55,412 nucleotides of DNA from Candidatus Schekmanbacteria bacterium (GTDB taxonomy: Bacteria > CSSED10-310 > JACPHN01). Positions 886-46,300 of the stretch are shown piece by piece. Numbering within the stretch: the first letter of the stretch is position 1; every line of letters begins with the position of its first letter. The stretch is taken from positions 1 through 55,412 of the forward strand of contig JACPHN010000046.1 in the NCBI GenBank assembly GCA_016188575.1, read 5' to 3'. The notes beneath the pieces were generated by a model that did not search any database, was not told the DNA's origin, and worked only from the letters and a program-made list of their open reading frames with translations. Position numbers and translations under genes: made by a program.

Positions 886-949
886 GCAGAACGCCCTGGT
901 TCAGCGGCGGGCCGCACAGCGGACCGTCCGCTGCAACCGGTTGTTATGC
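886..949 (-). other. Integron attC recombination site
   Basis: Read on the minus strand, a 64-base imperfect palindrome starts with GCATAAC (R'') and ends with GTTCTGC (R'), which pair at 6 of 7 positions. Inside, GGTT-G-CAGCGG pairs with CCGCTG-AACC and leaves one unpaired G, the extrahelical base expected in the L'' arm of attC sites. Length, arm order and the stop codon of the preceding gene two bases before R'' all fit a folded attC recognised by an IntI integrase. The bulge orientation places the cassette genes on the minus strand. Confidence 0.82.
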
Positions 950-950
950 A

Positions 951-1139
951 TCACTCTTTGACGTAGACAGCCAAGTACGTAGTCGTACCCTGACCAATGC
1001 CGAGACATCCGGGTTGCGTGACTTGGAACACAGAATGAAATCTGTAGCCCTCCGCCGCCCTTGACTCAAGCAGTTTCTCGAAATTGGATATCGCCTTACT
1101 CGAGAACTCAGCCCCAATAGACTCTACTTTGTACTTCAC
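951..1139 (-). CDS. DUF4177-like small protein, second gene of an integron cassette
   Basis: A 62-residue protein with the pattern of DUF4177: an opening strand 'MKYKVESIG', a helix 'AISNFEKLLESRAAEGYRF', then a strand 'HSVFQV' and a closing strand 'TTYLAVYVKE'. The function of this family is unknown. The ATG overlaps the end of the upstream yidD-like gene by four bases (ATGA), so the two are probably translationally coupled. The stop lies two bases before the attC R'' box, the usual economy of integron cassettes. The alternative is a spurious reading frame, but the fold pattern, overlap and attC position argue for a real gene. Confidence 0.65.
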   Translation of the reverse strand: MKYKVESIGAEFSSKAISNFEKLLESRAAEGYRFHSVFQVTQPGCLGIGQGTTTYLAVYVKE

Positions 1140-1483
1140 GGATTCCCTCCTTCCTCAATGAATGAATAATCGACGCTCCCATTGCCAGCCCGACAACGAA
1201 TCAGGCGGCGACCAGTCAACTTTAGGCCGCGCCAAAACCCTTGTTGCCGAAAGGCAAGCTCGCTGTAATGAGAACAACACGGTTCGAACACGCACCTGTT
1301 TCGCAATGACCGAGGCGCTGCCCGACGATAGAAACGCAGGACGATTACGGCCAGCCGGGTAAGAAACGGTCCGGAAGGAAGGGAAAGCGCAGAGATTCTA
1401 GCATCTCCTGGCGTCGTTCCAGTAAACTTGCGCTCCACTGACGGCCTAAGTGACTCATCAACGGCGAATTCGAATGTGTCCAT
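1136..1483 (-). CDS. YidD-family membrane protein insertion efficiency factor (cassette-borne)
   Basis: Residues about 42-105 match YidD: 'RLAVIVLRFYRRAAP', then the cysteine-containing core 'CVFEPCCSHYSELAF' and 'GFWRGLKLTGRRLIRC', close to the family pattern of a basic amphipathic N-terminus followed by CRF-P-CS-YA and RL-RC. YidD sits at the inner face of the cytoplasmic membrane and helps YidC insert proteins. Chromosomal yidD normally lies in the rpmH-rnpA-yidC cluster. Here it stands alone behind the cassette boundary GTTATGC (1503-1509), with AGGAG seven bases before the ATG. The 40 N-terminal residues are an extension not usual for the family. The second residue of the motif is C rather than T (PCCS), a small deviation. 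It is probably functional. Confidence 0.72.
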   Translation of the reverse strand: MDTFEFAVDESLRPSVERKFTGTTPGDARISALSLPSGPFLTRLAVIVLRFYRRAAPRSLRNRCVFEPCCSHYSELAFRQQGFWRGLKLTGRRLIRCRAGNGSVDYSFIEEGGNP

Positions 1484-1923
1484 GTTGCTCTCCTACTGTG
1501 ATGCATAACAACAATTAGACCGATCCGGATAAGCTGAAAAACCTGACATTCCTGTCGGCATGACAGGGTACCGATTCATCAGGGTAATCGCAACAACCAG
1601 GCACGCGCGTCGTGGTCTGGTCTGCGGGCCATCTTATGCGGATGCGCATAACAACCTCCTCAGTGCCGCTGCCTCTGGTGCGCGTTGGTGCAATGGCGTC
1701 AGCGGTTTGCCGTGATCCGTAGACATGTCGCGCCACGGCGCCAGCGGTTCCACGCGCGTGATTGCGAGAAATAGCTGCGGTGGCACTGGCTTCCCTGACG
1801 TCATTCTCACTTCGGAAAATGCCTGCCGGGCGTCCGCTGGCGTCATAGTTACGCTTGAGTATGCAGCGGAGCGAAGCGCCGGAGGCATTTTACGGTTTCT
1901 TGCCGACTGGGGCGCCTTACTGC
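1484..1923. other. Gene-poor stretch with two GTTATGC cassette-boundary-like boxes
   Basis: No convincing gene is seen in these 440 bases; the open frames have no recognisable protein pattern. On the minus strand TTGTTATGC occurs at 1503-1511 and again at 1647-1655. The first directly precedes the yidD-like cassette start and so behaves as an R' recombination box, although no matching left arm is clear. The second is preceded by GCGGCACTGAGGAGG, which resembles an L' arm, but its partner arm was not found within a normal attC length. The pair may bound a small gene-less cassette. Confidence 0.35.
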
Positions 1924-41820: not shown

Positions 41821-41878
41821 GTCTAACTTCGCGCATCAGGCGCGGGTGCAGCCTGGCGCCTGTATGCGTTTGTTGGCC
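41821..41878 (-). other. Integron attC recombination site
   Basis: On the minus strand a 58-base palindrome runs from GGCCAAC (R'') to GTTAGAC (R', perfect GTTRRRY). CGCAT-A-CAGGCGC pairs with GCGCCTG-ATGCG, leaving a single extrahelical A in the L'' arm. The bulge orientation agrees with the first attC (886-949). The hicA stop lies two bases before R'' and the next gene starts 10 bases after R'. Confidence 0.85.
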
Positions 41879-41880
41879 GG

Positions 41881-42068
41881 CTACGCAATCTCCGGAACGC
41901 CCAGACGGCGACAGATCTTCTGGGCGAGCCGGTTCGATATTTCTCCATGCCGTGGCACCGCTTCGACCGCGCCATTCGCGGGATTACACCACAATGAATG
42001 GGACGCGCCCTCGCGCTTCAGGTAGCACCCGGCTTCCGCAGGTGCCGAAGGAGTTGGCCGCGCTTCAC
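41881..42068 (-). pseudogene. hicA: HicA toxin with a frameshift
   Basis: Starting at a GTG that overlaps the hicB stop (GTGA), the first frame reads 'VKRGQLLRHLR', the normal HicA N-terminus. About base 42037 the frame must shift by one to give 'EAGCYLKREGASHSLWCNP' and 'AVEAVPRHGEISNRLAQKIC', ending 'RRLGVPEIA' at a TAG. The double-stranded-RNA-binding-like fold with catalytic His in 'GASHSLW' is otherwise complete. HicA cuts mRNA when free of HicB. As written the toxin cannot be made in one frame, so it is inactivated unless this is a sequencing error or a programmed shift. The stop is two bases before the attC R'' box. Confidence 0.75.
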
Positions 42069-42280
42069 TCGACAGTGACCGTCTCGCGCTCGGCCTCGGG
42101 TGGAAGCCCGCGGAGGGCATCATCGCGCCGATCGTCGAGAATGAGGCGGATCGCGTCGGCAAGACTGGCGCGCGCTTCTTCCTTTGTACGTCCCTGGCCA
42201 TTGGCCCCCGGGACTTCAGGGCAGTACGCGACAAACCAGACGCCGTCACGCTCGAAGACGGCCGTGAACTCGTTTCGCAT
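42065..42280 (-). CDS. hicB: HicB-family antitoxin
   Basis: 71 residues: 'MRNEFTAVFERDGVWFVAYC', 'PEVPGANGQGRTKEEARASL' and 'ADAIRLILDDRRDDALRGLP'. This is the short (UPF0150) HicB fold, which blocks HicA by direct binding. The usual C-terminal DNA-binding segment is missing, so it may not autoregulate. Gene order hicB then hicA with GTGA overlap is one of the known arrangements. It is the gene nearest the integrase relic, in the first-cassette position of an integron layout. No obvious ribosome site precedes the ATG. Confidence 0.82.
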   Translation of the reverse strand: MRNEFTAVFERDGVWFVAYCPEVPGANGQGRTKEEARASLADAIRLILDDRRDDALRGLPPEAERETVTVE

Positions 42281-42321
42281 CGCCCGGTCCGCTTTCGATT
42301 CTACCGCAGTTTCTCCAATCC

Positions 42322-42476
42322 GCCCAACGGGGCGCCGGGTCAGCGGCAGCGCTCGGAGGTAGTTTACTACCGCAGGGCGCTGTCCGTTGCACCCGGTTGT
42401 TCCGCTGCGCGAGTCAGCGCGGCGGAACAACCGGGCTTTGCGCGGCGCCCCGTTCCTCCGACGCGCAGCGTCGGAG
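42322..42476. other. Nested palindrome cluster, candidate attI/attC region
   Basis: Within 155 bases: AACGGGGCGCCG (42326-42337) pairs with CGGCGCCCCGTT (42442-42453). Inside lie GGCAGCGC/GCGCTGTCC (42345-42352 and 42377-42385, one bulged base), GGTAG-TTTA-CTACC (42358-42371), and CCCGGTTGTTCCGC/GCGGAACAACCGGG (42392-42405 and 42421-42434). CCTCCGACGC-GCA-GCGTCGGAGG follows at 42454-42476. On the minus strand 42392-42322 could be an attC with R'' GTGCAAC and R' GTTGGGC (perfect GTTRRRY), its bulge on the expected side. The cluster lies between the divergent integrase relic and hicB. Confidence 0.55.
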
Positions 42477-42669
42477 GAGCTCCTTATTCTACCCACATCC
42501 CCATTGCTGGAGGGTAGCCCAAGAACCGGGAGGATCGTAGCATCGGCGGTCGGTGCCGTCAAGTGTCTGATGCGCGCGCCGCGAGCAGGTGACAGACAGC
42601 GACCCAGCGACTACCATAGCCTGGGTATCGACCTGGTTATGGCGATCCGGATAATGCGGGAGGGCAGTT

Positions 42670-43275
42670 ATGACTGAAGCGGGCGACCCCTTGCCGGCCG
42701 TTCCGGATGGACACGCCAGCATCTTCGCGAGCGGCAACTGGCTCCGCCCAAGCAGCAGTCATTCCTGGTGCGTTGGGTACGCGAGCTCCTGGGTTTCGCG
42801 CGGGAGCACCGCGGATACACCTTCGAGCAGACGCTGGATGCCTCCCTGGCCGCACTGGGCGATCGGGCCGGCACGGAGCCCTGGCAGATCCGCCAGGCCG
42901 CGGACGCGGTTTGCACCTACCGCTATCAATACCGTGCGGCGGGGGAGCCCGCGCAGCCCAGCGCTCCCAGGTTGACTGACGGAGCTGCACTGGCCGACGA
43001 CCAAAGCCTGCTCCGGCGCCTGCGCGAAGTGATCCGGCTGCGGCACTATGCGTGGGCCACCGAGAAGCATGTCGGGATTGGTCGCGCCGTTTCTTGGAGG
43101 ATCGCCAGCAGACCGGCCTGAGCGGCCGGCCGACCACAGCCGACGTCAAGGCCTTTCTCACCCGCCTGGCGATGGTGCAGCGGGTAAGTGCTTCGACCCA
43201 GAACCAGGCGTTCAGCGCCTTGCTGCTCCTCTTCCGCGAGGTGCTGCGGACGGACTTGGCGGAGCAGGTTTCCCG
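42670..43275 (+). pseudogene. Integron-type integrase (IntI-like), N-terminal relic
   Basis: An ATG with GGGAGGG upstream opens 'MTEAGDPLPAVPDG'. One frame over it continues 'WTRQHLRERQLAPPKQQSFL' and 'VRWVRELLGFAREHRG', 'EPWQIRQAADAVCTYRYQYR', then 'LLRRLREVIRLRHYAWATEK'. After a second shift near 43070 it reads 'DWSRRFLED', 'TADVKAFLTRLAM' and 'SASTQNQAFSALLLLFREVL'. The last parts match the SAM-like core-binding domain of IntI/XerC-type tyrosine recombinases, and 'STQNQALSALLFLYREVL' is almost the family consensus. The catalytic domain with Arg-His-Arg-Tyr is absent: the relic runs into the promoter of the next gene. It is divergent from the attC-bearing cassettes, as intI is in integrons. 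Confidence 0.78.
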
Positions 43276-43280
43276 CTCAA

Positions 43281-43309
43281 TTGACAGCAGCCGAGCCCGT
43301 AACTATGCT
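43281..43309 (+). promoter_or_regulatory. Promoter of the propeller-kinase gene, near-leaderless
   Basis: TTGACA (43281-43286), a 17-base spacer and TATGCT (43304-43309). The ATG at 43316 starts six bases after the -10, where transcription itself should begin, and no ribosome site is seen. It lies inside the end of the integrase relic. Confidence 0.6.
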
Positions 43310-43315
43310 GCCGCA

Positions 43316-46300
43316 ATGCTTCAGCGTAGGATCGCTTCCCTCCTGCTCCCGGCGATGGTGTCGCTCGTCCTCGCCGGGCAACCGTCCGTGGCGCCGGTAT
43401 GCGCCGATGGGAAGCCAGCACAGTCCGAAGATCTGGCGCCCCTCGCGCGACTCCAGAGTTGGGCCCCGACCGTGTCCGAGCGCCTCACCCGAGCCGTGCG
43501 CGAGGCCGAGGGCGCCGACCTACAGGCCAGAGCCGCTCACCTCCAGCAAGTCCTCGAATCCACGACACTCTCGGCGGGCGAACGCGCCGCCGGGTTGTGG
43601 ACGCTGGCGCGATGGCATCGGCGACTGGGCGAGCTGGAAGCGGCGGTGCTGGCCTACAGGGCCGCCTTTGCCGCGATTTCCGCGGCCTCGGGGAGCCGGG
43701 AGGTGCCGGCGCGCAATGATTTCGCTCTGGCACTGCTGACCGAGACTATCGGCGTCCTTCATAGCGAGCTCGGCCGTGTCGACGACAGCATCACGCTCAT
43801 CCCGGAGGCCATGTTGCTGGCCCCGCGGAGCGGCTCGGAGACGTGGCAGGAGCGTCTGCGAGCGTGGCTGCATCAGTCTCACGAGCTCTTCGCGAGAGAA
43901 CGCGTCACCAGGCTCCGCGAACGCTTCCGCTTCTCGACCTTCACAACGACCGACGGATTGTGCGATCCCAACATCATGCGGCTCATGCTTGACCGCGCGG
44001 CGGGATTGTGGATCGGCAGCAGTCAGGGTCTGTGTCGCTTTGACGGCGTGGCGTTCACGCCAGTGCCGGTGGGCGCACAAGGGGACAGGGCGACGGTGTG
44101 GGCGCTCGCGGAAGACGCGTCGGGGAGAATCTGGGTAGGGCTGAGCTCGGGACTGCGCGTCGTCGACCGCGGGCGCGTCGTCCGAGCTCCCGGCACCGAG
44201 GCGCTCGCGAGCGCCGCAGTCCGCGCCCTGGCCGTTGCCCCTGACGGCGCGGTGTGGATCGGGAGCAAGGGCGGCATTGTCCAGGTGTACCGAGACGGGA
44301 ATCTGCAAACGCTGGCGGCTGCAGGACACGGGGAGATCGAGGCAATCCACGCCCAGGCCGACGGCGTCGTCTGGCTCGTGGCGGCGGAGGGACTCGGGCG
44401 CTGGAGTGCCGATTCCCCGCTCGAGTGGTGGTCTCCTCCTGCCTGTCCGGCGCTGCCAGGCGCGACGGCAACAGACAACAAGCTTGCGGCGGCCACGAGC
44501 GGGCCGGAAGAATCCGGCGAGCTGTGGCTGGGCACGAGCTGCGGGGTGTGGCGATTCCGCGCCGGGGCGTGGACAAGGCCGCTGTGGGCCGAGCAGCTAC
44601 CGGAAGGAGCGTCCCTCAGCGCGCTGACAGTCGATCGCGCCGGGAACCTGTGGATCGGCTACGAGGCTGCGGGGCTCTTCATGGTCGAGGGAACGCGAGT
44701 GACGCCGCTTGGCGAGGCCGAGGGCCTCGGCCGTAACAACGTGCAGTCCGTGGTCGACGATGGCCGGGGGCGCCTCTGGATCGGCACGTTCGGCGGGGGG
44801 CTGAGCCGCTATGAGCCGTCACGCGCCCGCATTTTCCGCCGCACCAGCGGGCTACCGCACGACGTCACCTATGCGGTTCGCCTCGATCGCTCGGGGCAGT
44901 TGTGGGTGGGCACATGGGGCGGCGGAGTAGCGCGCTTCGACGGCCGCGCCTTTCGCTACTATGGTCAGGAGCAGGGTCTGGCCGATAACCTCGTCTGCCG
45001 CATTCTCGAGGACCACCTCGGAAACATCTGGTTTGGGACATTCGCCGGGGGCGCCAGCCGCTTTGACGGCCGCCGCTGGGAGCATATTGACAGCAAGCGC
45101 GGGATCACGGACAACTTCGTGGCGGCGATTCATGAGGACAGGTCCGGCCGTTTCTGGTTCGGCACGTGGCGGGGGGGAGTTTGCCGCCTTGACGAGCCCG
45201 CGGGCAAGGTGGCCTGCTTTCAGCAGGAAGCGGGGCTCCTGGCCGAGCAAGTCCTGGGGATTGCCGAAGCAGAGGATCGCCGCCTGTTCTTCGCCACCGA
45301 TCACGGGATCTTCACCCTGGAGCCGACACCCGGCGCGCGCTTCACCCGACTTGGTCACGATGACGGGGTGCCGGCGGAGAGTTTCCTCGGGCTTCTTGTG
45401 GACACCGGGGGCGCGGGCGGTCAAGCCGACGACGTGTGGATGGGGAGCACGAGCAATCGCCTGTATCGCTATCGGCGCACGGCCAGGTCGGGCGAGCGCC
45501 TGGCAAGCTGGGGAAAGTCGGAGGGGATGCGTGCGCACGAGATCACTGAGATCCAGAGAGGCCCGCGCGATCTGCTTTGGGTAGCATCAGACGCGGGCGT
45601 CGGGATTTTCGATGGCGAAACGTGGTCCTGGTTGGACGAGGAAGATGGCCTCGCTCACCGGCAGACGTGGTCGCTAGCCTTCGCGCGGGCGCGGGAGCAG
45701 GCGCGGCCGGCGGCCGACGTCGCCTGGATCGCGACGTCCGGGGGACTCACCCGCATCGAGCTGCCACCGGACACCCCAAAGACCCGCATCGCTCTGGCGC
45801 CAGCGGGGGAGGAAAGCCTCACGCCGGTGACGATCAGCGATGCGGAGATCACGCTCGCGGTCGAGGCCCGCACTCCGTGGGTTCATCCCAGGCGGGACAG
45901 CTTCTGGTTTTCCGCGCGCGTCGACAGCGGTCCGTGGGGCGCGTGGCAGGCAGAGCCGAATCTGGCGCTGCCACTGCTCGCGCGCGGGCTCCACACTGTC
46001 GAGGTCCGCGCGAAGAACCGATACCTGGCGGTGGACGCCTCACCGGCGCGCATCGTGGTGGACGTCCAGCCCGCCAGGCCATACTGGCCGTGGCTCGCTG
46101 TCGTCGCGGTCGCACTGGCACTCGCGCGGCAGTATCGAGAAACGCTTCGCTTCGCGCTCGAACGGGCGCTGGTGGCGGTCCTGCGGGGGCGCCGGTTCGC
46201 GCCGGTCCCGGAGGGGCGGTTCTGGACCCGAGCGCTTCCGGCCGGTGATGCGCCGATCCTGATTCGTGGCGACGTCACCGAGACGCTGCACCGCGAGCTC

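Follow-up and report, generated by a model that had tools for sequence, protein, structure and literature searches.

The short-loop YidD proteins and their DUF4177 partners very probably constitute a rare two-gene module that is mobile as a unit, carried on integron cassettes and, in another version, by temperate phages. The novelty resides in this mobile module being common to integrons and phages; no earlier report of the YidD-DUF4177 pair was found in the literature searched, which consisted mostly of papers outside subscription journals. The copy described here lies in a stretch of 55,412 nucleotides from a Candidatus Schekmanbacteria bacterium (contig JACPHN010000046.1), hereafter the window, in which positions 892-1508 of the minus strand are an integron gene cassette with two genes, encoding a divergent YidD and a DUF4177-like protein. 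Its features are the following:

886 to 949, minus strand: attC recombination site of 64 bases (covariance model, fold, box layout)
886 to 892, minus strand: R' box GTTCTGC of attC, non-consensus; right end of the integrated cassette after the first G (sequence)
943 to 949, minus strand: R'' box of attC, GCATAAC, which complements the cassette 5' boundary exactly
951 to 1139, minus strand: DUF4177-like gene, 62 amino acids, GTG start, motif HSVFQVTQPGCLGIGQ (Pfam, family alignment, profile match)
1136 to 1139, minus strand: GTGA, four-base overlap of the two genes (sequence)
1136 to 1483, minus strand: short-loop YidD gene, 115 amino acids, N-terminal extension of about 40 residues (Pfam, TIGR00278, alignment, clade)
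1490 to 1494, minus strand: AGGAG, resembling a ribosome-binding site, ahead of the ATG at 1483 (sequence)
1503 to 1509, minus strand: GTTATGC, cassette 5' boundary, crossover after the first G (sequence)

Read along the minus strand, the order is GTTATGC, AGGAG, the YidD gene, the DUF4177-like gene and attC, and both frames are open over their full length. The preliminary description of this DNA had proposed a two-gene integron cassette starting just past GTTATGC, and this proposal is borne out by the attC model score, the boundary match, the attC copies found across the genome and a second copy of the pair on another contig (C117). The four-base overlap between the genes and the single extrahelical base of attC, which reads G on the gene strand and C on the folded one, are likewise as described. 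The 64-base length given for attC stands as well, but not the gap of two bases between the genes and the site: the stop codon of the DUF4177-like gene occupies 953-951, which leaves a single base (950) before the end of attC at 949.

The attC site was scored, as the preliminary description had suggested, with a covariance model trained on nine resistance-type cassette sites from named plasmids, none of which comes from this genome. Over 153,246 bases (the window and 11 loci), the stretch 886-949 is the top match, with 21.9 bits and an E value of 0.013. The runners-up reach 21.7 bits, just upstream of a YidD-DUF4177 pair in an Aeromonadales genome, and 21.0 bits in contig C117, the next match being at 12.7 bits; with the same model, cassette sites of plasmid integrons score 27-48 bits, most of them (nine) being its own training sites. 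The boxes are laid out 7-5-8 / 7-6-7, as in resistance cassettes (GCATAAC-AACCG-GTTGCAGC ... GCTGAAC-CAGGGC-GTTCTGC), and the folded strand reaches -23.4 kcal/mol (z -5.05), a value that none of 200 shuffles equals. Of 20,000 40-base pieces taken at random from the window, 10 contain GTTATGC. The right box on the outer side, GTTCTGC, departs from the GTTRRRY consensus at two positions. On the left side of the cassette, no attC was scored by the covariance model and the fold of 1503-1655 is unremarkable (z -1.61); the second GCATAAC present there, at 1646-1652 (+) and 143 bases from the cassette boundary, is perhaps a decayed site, the surrounding stretch folding at chance level.

The genome encodes two full-length integron integrases (TIGR02249, 476.7 and 424.2 bits), both on contigs other than that of the window. 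The 5' half of the window attC is identical to that of the attC of the C117 array, and at least 43 copies of it (up to three mismatches) are found genome-wide, in runs on several contigs, versus two for the reversed pattern. Taken together, the attC model match, the fold, the boundary, these copies and the two integrases show that the cassette belongs to the organism's own integron system, as a lone cassette at best. Indeed, no intI/attI array was found near 886-1509, and the one trace of intI on the same contig is a broken remnant at 43 kb. The attC-half copies on contigs C43, C56, C99 and others amount to a large cassette store. In the genome set used, the class of this organism is represented by one genome and its phylum by eight.

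The integrase remnant (42640-43342, plus strand; 47 bits, model positions 20-110) runs in frame into an open frame of 1750 codons. It adjoins a region at 41821-42480 (-) that contains an attC-like site at 41821-41878, and an attC-half copy with two mismatches lies close to it at 42382-42401, as does a weak HicA match (22.4 bits, below its cut-off); this region and the remnant are a small broken integron. At the other end of the window, downstream of the cassette, the minus strand carries the N-terminal part of an ATPase resembling GajA/Old and a piece of a type I specificity subunit (HsdS) at 51-296 and 405-860, which point to a damaged defence locus. The assembly is fragmented (275 contigs) and the cassette lies close to a contig end.

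Contig C117 of the same genome carries the same YidD-DUF4177 pair between GTTGGGC (617) and GCCCAAC (1232), and the next cassette, bounded by GTTGGAC (1401) and GTCCAAC (2020), encodes an antitoxin together with a ParE toxin. The DUF4177 protein of C117 shares 61% identity over 59 residues with that of the window and is interrupted by a TGA; its YidD neighbour has an open frame and has lost the third cysteine. A tree built from the concatenated pair places the window and C117 copies on opposite sides of splits supported by bootstraps of 84 and 94; from these sequences, separate arrivals would thus fit better than a recent duplication.

The YidD encoded by the cassette is recognized by Pfam YidD (PF01809, 55.2 bits, cut-off 27) and by NCBIfam TIGR00278 (61.8 bits, cut-off 40), the latter match ending at position 59 of 64, and the canonical C-terminal DPVP is absent. 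It also lacks the other canonical marks, namely the RC[HQN]P...GGxDPVP end and the rnpA/yidC neighbours. We built a tree over about 76 residues from 12 canonical YidDs (that of this genome, that of C. difficile and ten from host genomes of the pair) and 30 DUF4177-linked ones (13 of cassette type and 17 from phages). Canonical and linked proteins are split with a bootstrap of 100; the phage copies form a clade (bootstrap 87) and the cassette or integron type has no clade of its own. The residue following the third cysteine is His in nine, Gln in two and Asn in one of the canonical proteins, versus Arg in 13, Lys in 16 and Cys in one of the linked proteins, so that His is found in none of the 30 linked YidDs and is missing also from three of the 12 canonical ones. 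The C-terminus is mostly DPVP or DPLP in the former and D[LYFI]P in the latter. The window protein itself deviates at conserved sites (CRAGNGSVDYS for CRPxxGGxDLP, EPCCS for EPSCS), and judging from these substitutions the copy may be decaying.

The usual yidD, for which the preliminary description had suggested looking, is present in this genome, adjoining rnpA and yidC. Furthermore, a second, canonical YidD is kept in 10 of the 11 host genomes of the pair, and a YidC neighbour is found beside six of 10 canonical copies versus none of 11 linked copies. The cassette gene therefore adds to the housekeeping gene and does not replace it. The idea that a normally fixed yidD had been made mobile thus gives way to that of a separate mobile YidD clade, defined by the bootstrap of 100 and by the tie between short loop and DUF4177. 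The modulation of membrane-protein insertion suggested in the preliminary description is a putative role. The predicted model of the protein is modest (pLDDT 70.7), and no solved structure matching either protein was found by sequence or by fold (Foldseek, E 0.001). A third type of YidD, ending in SCID[LY]P and without DUF4177 within the flanks, is present in three viral contigs (L199, L200 and L205). In the two genomes with three and four YidD matches, additional short ones occur at G009:C146, G267:C322 and G267:C65, scoring 48-50 bits over model positions 8-54.

The partner in the window scores 17.6 bits against Pfam DUF4177 (PF13783), under the cut-off of 25, and is accordingly called DUF4177-like; three phage partners reach 22.7, 23.6 and 21.0 bits against the same cut-off. 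In an alignment of 12 partners, HSVF...QPGCLGIG is nearly invariant and the cysteine of PGC is invariant, and a profile comparison matches the phage DUF4177 to the cassette partner over the GYxF...QPGC part (probability 85, E 6e-6). The predicted structure is good (pLDDT 88.2), with a strand-helix-strand-strand order. A tblastn search of plasmids with the window protein gave no match. The suggestion that DUF4177 is a partner of YidD is well founded, with the two genes paired across the relatives, in C117 and in phages.

A scan of 84,980 species genomes returned 11 loci. One of them (L034) was a chance match inside an unrelated frame without the other features of the family and was dropped before counting; all ten true relatives carry the pair in the same order, the DUF4177-like gene directly following the extended YidD. 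Their hosts are Aeromonadales, Ghiorsea, Halomonas, Gemmatimonadetes, Chloroploca, Acidobacteria, Burkholderiales, Tahibacter, a gammaproteobacterium and an alphaproteobacterium. A partner HMM run on five partly overlapping draws (398, 369, 249, 251 and 247 genomes) recovered six genomes already known and a new one, G267, again with the pair; the draw of 398 genomes, all from one phylum, thus yields one new pair. Among the eight genomes of the phylum to which the window belongs, one has the pair. From these counts, the family of extended YidD and DUF4177 is rare and patchy across distant phyla.

Clear cassette flanks, according to the boundary rule, are seen for the window, C117, L024 and L030. 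An attC-like start upstream of the pair was recognized by eye only at L026, where a complete Thoeris pair lies nearby. No attC was detected by the covariance model beside the pair at the remaining loci (L025, L027-L029, L031-L033 and L051), and the pair is therefore not confined to integrons. A hand-made attC finder recovered most resistance-cassette sites and missed those of the window and L024 at its thresholds, the covariance model left the long attC of the C117 cassette and of L030 unscored, so that both rest on box sequences only, and it gave the downstream attC of L024 itself a chance-level score (9.9 bits, E 6.2). An integron integrase above the cut-off is encoded in three of the ten host genomes, and a broken one in a fourth. 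Regarding the reservation made in the preliminary description, that the same pair might exist outside any integron with matching flanks, the pair does occur outside integrons and the flanks all differ by eye. At L032 (4177-5441), the pair follows an SPFH gene (Band_7, 117.6 bits), and a Bacteroides plasmid (L018) has yidD followed by an SPFH gene.

The window YidD, used as a tblastn query, brought up the phage version, in HP1 (orf2), in phage P88, and in prophages and plasmids of Klebsiella. In the HP1, P88 and Klebsiella copies, the DUF4177 gene lies directly ahead of yidD, often with TAAATG at the junction. All 21 viral contigs found by means of the phage DUF4177 have an adjacent YidD. In the opposite direction, a viral set retrieved with a profile built from linked phage YidDs comprises 77 loci, in which DUF4177 lies within the 2-kb flanks of 58 of 59 short-loop YidDs versus none of 14 with other loop types, the short loop being defined, by a rule written after the sequences were seen, as the third cysteine, four residues and GGxD; four of the 77 loci are unclassified, two with DUF4177 and two without. 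Restricted to distinct sequences, the figures are 38 of 39 versus none of 11. The window YidD (GS for GG) and the C117 YidD (cysteine lost) fall outside the strict pattern. Both gene orders occur in the viral set, in a ratio of 35 to 3 distinct sequences. The integron type was found in IMG/VR neither with the whole DUF4177 pair alignment nor with its 32-residue core nor by extended YidD scans. The P88-type region is present in 20 of 5,426 E. coli genomes; in P88, YidD is frameshifted and DUF4177 open. Several phage copies are located at prophage ends, others immediately or a short way downstream of a CI-type repressor on the same strand (L166, L147 and HP1) or right after a tail-assembly gene (L157 and L164). 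On two Klebsiella plasmids (L013 and L014), the pair adjoins ccdAB.

Canonical YidD, encoded in the rpmH-rnpA-yidD-yidC cluster, belongs to the same family by profile, with three cysteines and a conserved core. The linked YidDs differ from it by a loop after the third cysteine that is one residue shorter, by Arg/Lys instead of His/Gln/Asn, by D[LYF]P instead of DPVP, by a DUF4177 neighbour and no YidC neighbour and, in the integron type, by the N-terminal extension of about 40 residues. The pair of P2-like and HP1-like prophages (HP1 orf3-orf2, P88, Klebsiella prophage) consists of the same adjacent families, with a YidD of the same clade and a similar PGC-type motif; it differs from the cassette pair by a mostly opposite gene order, the lack of the N-terminal extension and a longer DUF4177. 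A further parallel is the RexAB-type exclusion of phage lambda, which adjoins cI and consists of two small genes, one of them membrane-acting, in the neighbourhood of a lysogen repressor. The YidD-DUF4177 pair resembles it in having two small genes and a repressor neighbourhood, but exclusion is only proposed for the former, and we know of no sequence relation between the two systems.

Our leading explanation, which in our judgment falls just short of an even chance, is that the mobile module serves, at the inner membrane, as an accessory unit of exclusion or defence. The exclusion or defence reading is drawn from the repressor or tail-gene slots, from the prophage ends and from the Thoeris, HipA and ParE neighbours; repressor-linked and post-tail slots are usual places for lysogen-expressed extra genes. 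The neighbours of cassette loci include a complete Thoeris pair (L026, 681 and 215 bits), HipA (L030) and ParE (L003), and a GajA/Old-like fragment lies beside the window cassette, but such neighbours weigh little, since toxin-antitoxin and defence genes abound in integrons and prophages in any case, and for this reason exclusion or defence as the function of the module is put forward somewhat more cautiously still, as a possibility. No model of PADLOC 2.0.0 matches either window protein (E 0.1).

Canonical YidD is thought to sit where YidC and Sec insert proteins. In the proposed mechanism, the short-loop YidD would occupy this very place on the membrane and interfere with insertion or injection steps needed by an incoming phage, and it would depend on the DUF4177 protein as a subunit or regulator. 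A structural tie between them may lie in the cysteines, YidD trading part of its third-cysteine site (RCHP to Arg/Lys) and the partner supplying the invariant cysteine of PGC. The absence of His from linked YidDs and the invariance of this cysteine led us to propose that the two proteins share one metal or thiol site, a doubtful suggestion as it stands. In C117, the cysteine loss in YidD and the broken partner occur together. On the other hand, the change from His to Arg/Lys would not be a clean ligand swap, His being missing from some canonical YidDs too. The complete picture, that of an undescribed mobile two-gene system, borne by integron cassettes in several phyla and by temperate phages, in which a YidD paralogue with a shared cysteine site and its obligate DUF4177 partner block incoming phages or competing elements at the step of inner-membrane insertion by YidC/Sec, is as speculative as the shared site itself.

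Instead of excluding phages, the pair could boost or alter YidC/Sec-dependent insertion and be kept for tolerance to stress or inhibitors, a role as accessory insertion factor that we consider rather unlikely. It agrees with the homology to YidD, an annotated insertion factor, listed as Sec-associated after Yu et al. 2011 in PMC8082313, and with the host genomes keeping the canonical gene, but the repressor-linked and moron slots of the phage copies are unusual for a housekeeping spare, and the canonical DPVP end is gone, with the TIGR00278 match stopping at 59 of 64. A precedent exists in the accessory peptide deformylases of integron cassettes, which confer resistance to inhibitors (PMC12690207). 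Here too, cassettes have disseminated an extra form of a housekeeping gene; these are single genes encoding an enzyme with a shown role in resistance, whereas the YidD module has two genes and a putative role.

Less probable than a spare insertion factor is a toxin-antitoxin or lysis pair, in which YidD would harm the membrane and DUF4177 restrain it, stabilizing the cassette or prophage. The obligate pairing (58 of 59 short-loop viral YidDs) and the ccdAB, Hok and YafO genes adjoining some copies are in line with it, as is the lysis of cells in culture reported for YtjA, a YidD relative of B. subtilis, in PMC3573977. It accords poorly with the occurrence of both gene orders (35 to 3 distinct) and with C117, where the partner has a stop and YidD is open, although that YidD has lost a conserved cysteine and may be dead.

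The cassette of this organism could instead be genomic debris, once mobile and now dead and functionless. The window copy deviates at conserved sites, both C117 partners are damaged, the right box is non-consensus and an HsdS fragment lies nearby; since both window frames are fully open, with a plausible ribosome-binding site, and the relatives elsewhere look intact, we regard this as improbable. Finally, a chance hairpin or an assembly artefact in place of a cassette, brought to mind by the nearby contig end, the left side without a scored attC and an assembly in 275 contigs, is most improbable given the attC model match, the fold (z -5.05), the 43 attC-half copies, the boundary match and the second copy in C117.

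YidD is widespread in bacteria and its role is still called 'putative'. A natural YidD variant that is found off the yidC cluster, with a fixed partner, on both integrons and phages, is a clean handle on this role. Furthermore, with the mobile pair, membrane-insertion factors would join the few housekeeping functions of which mobile accessory versions exist.
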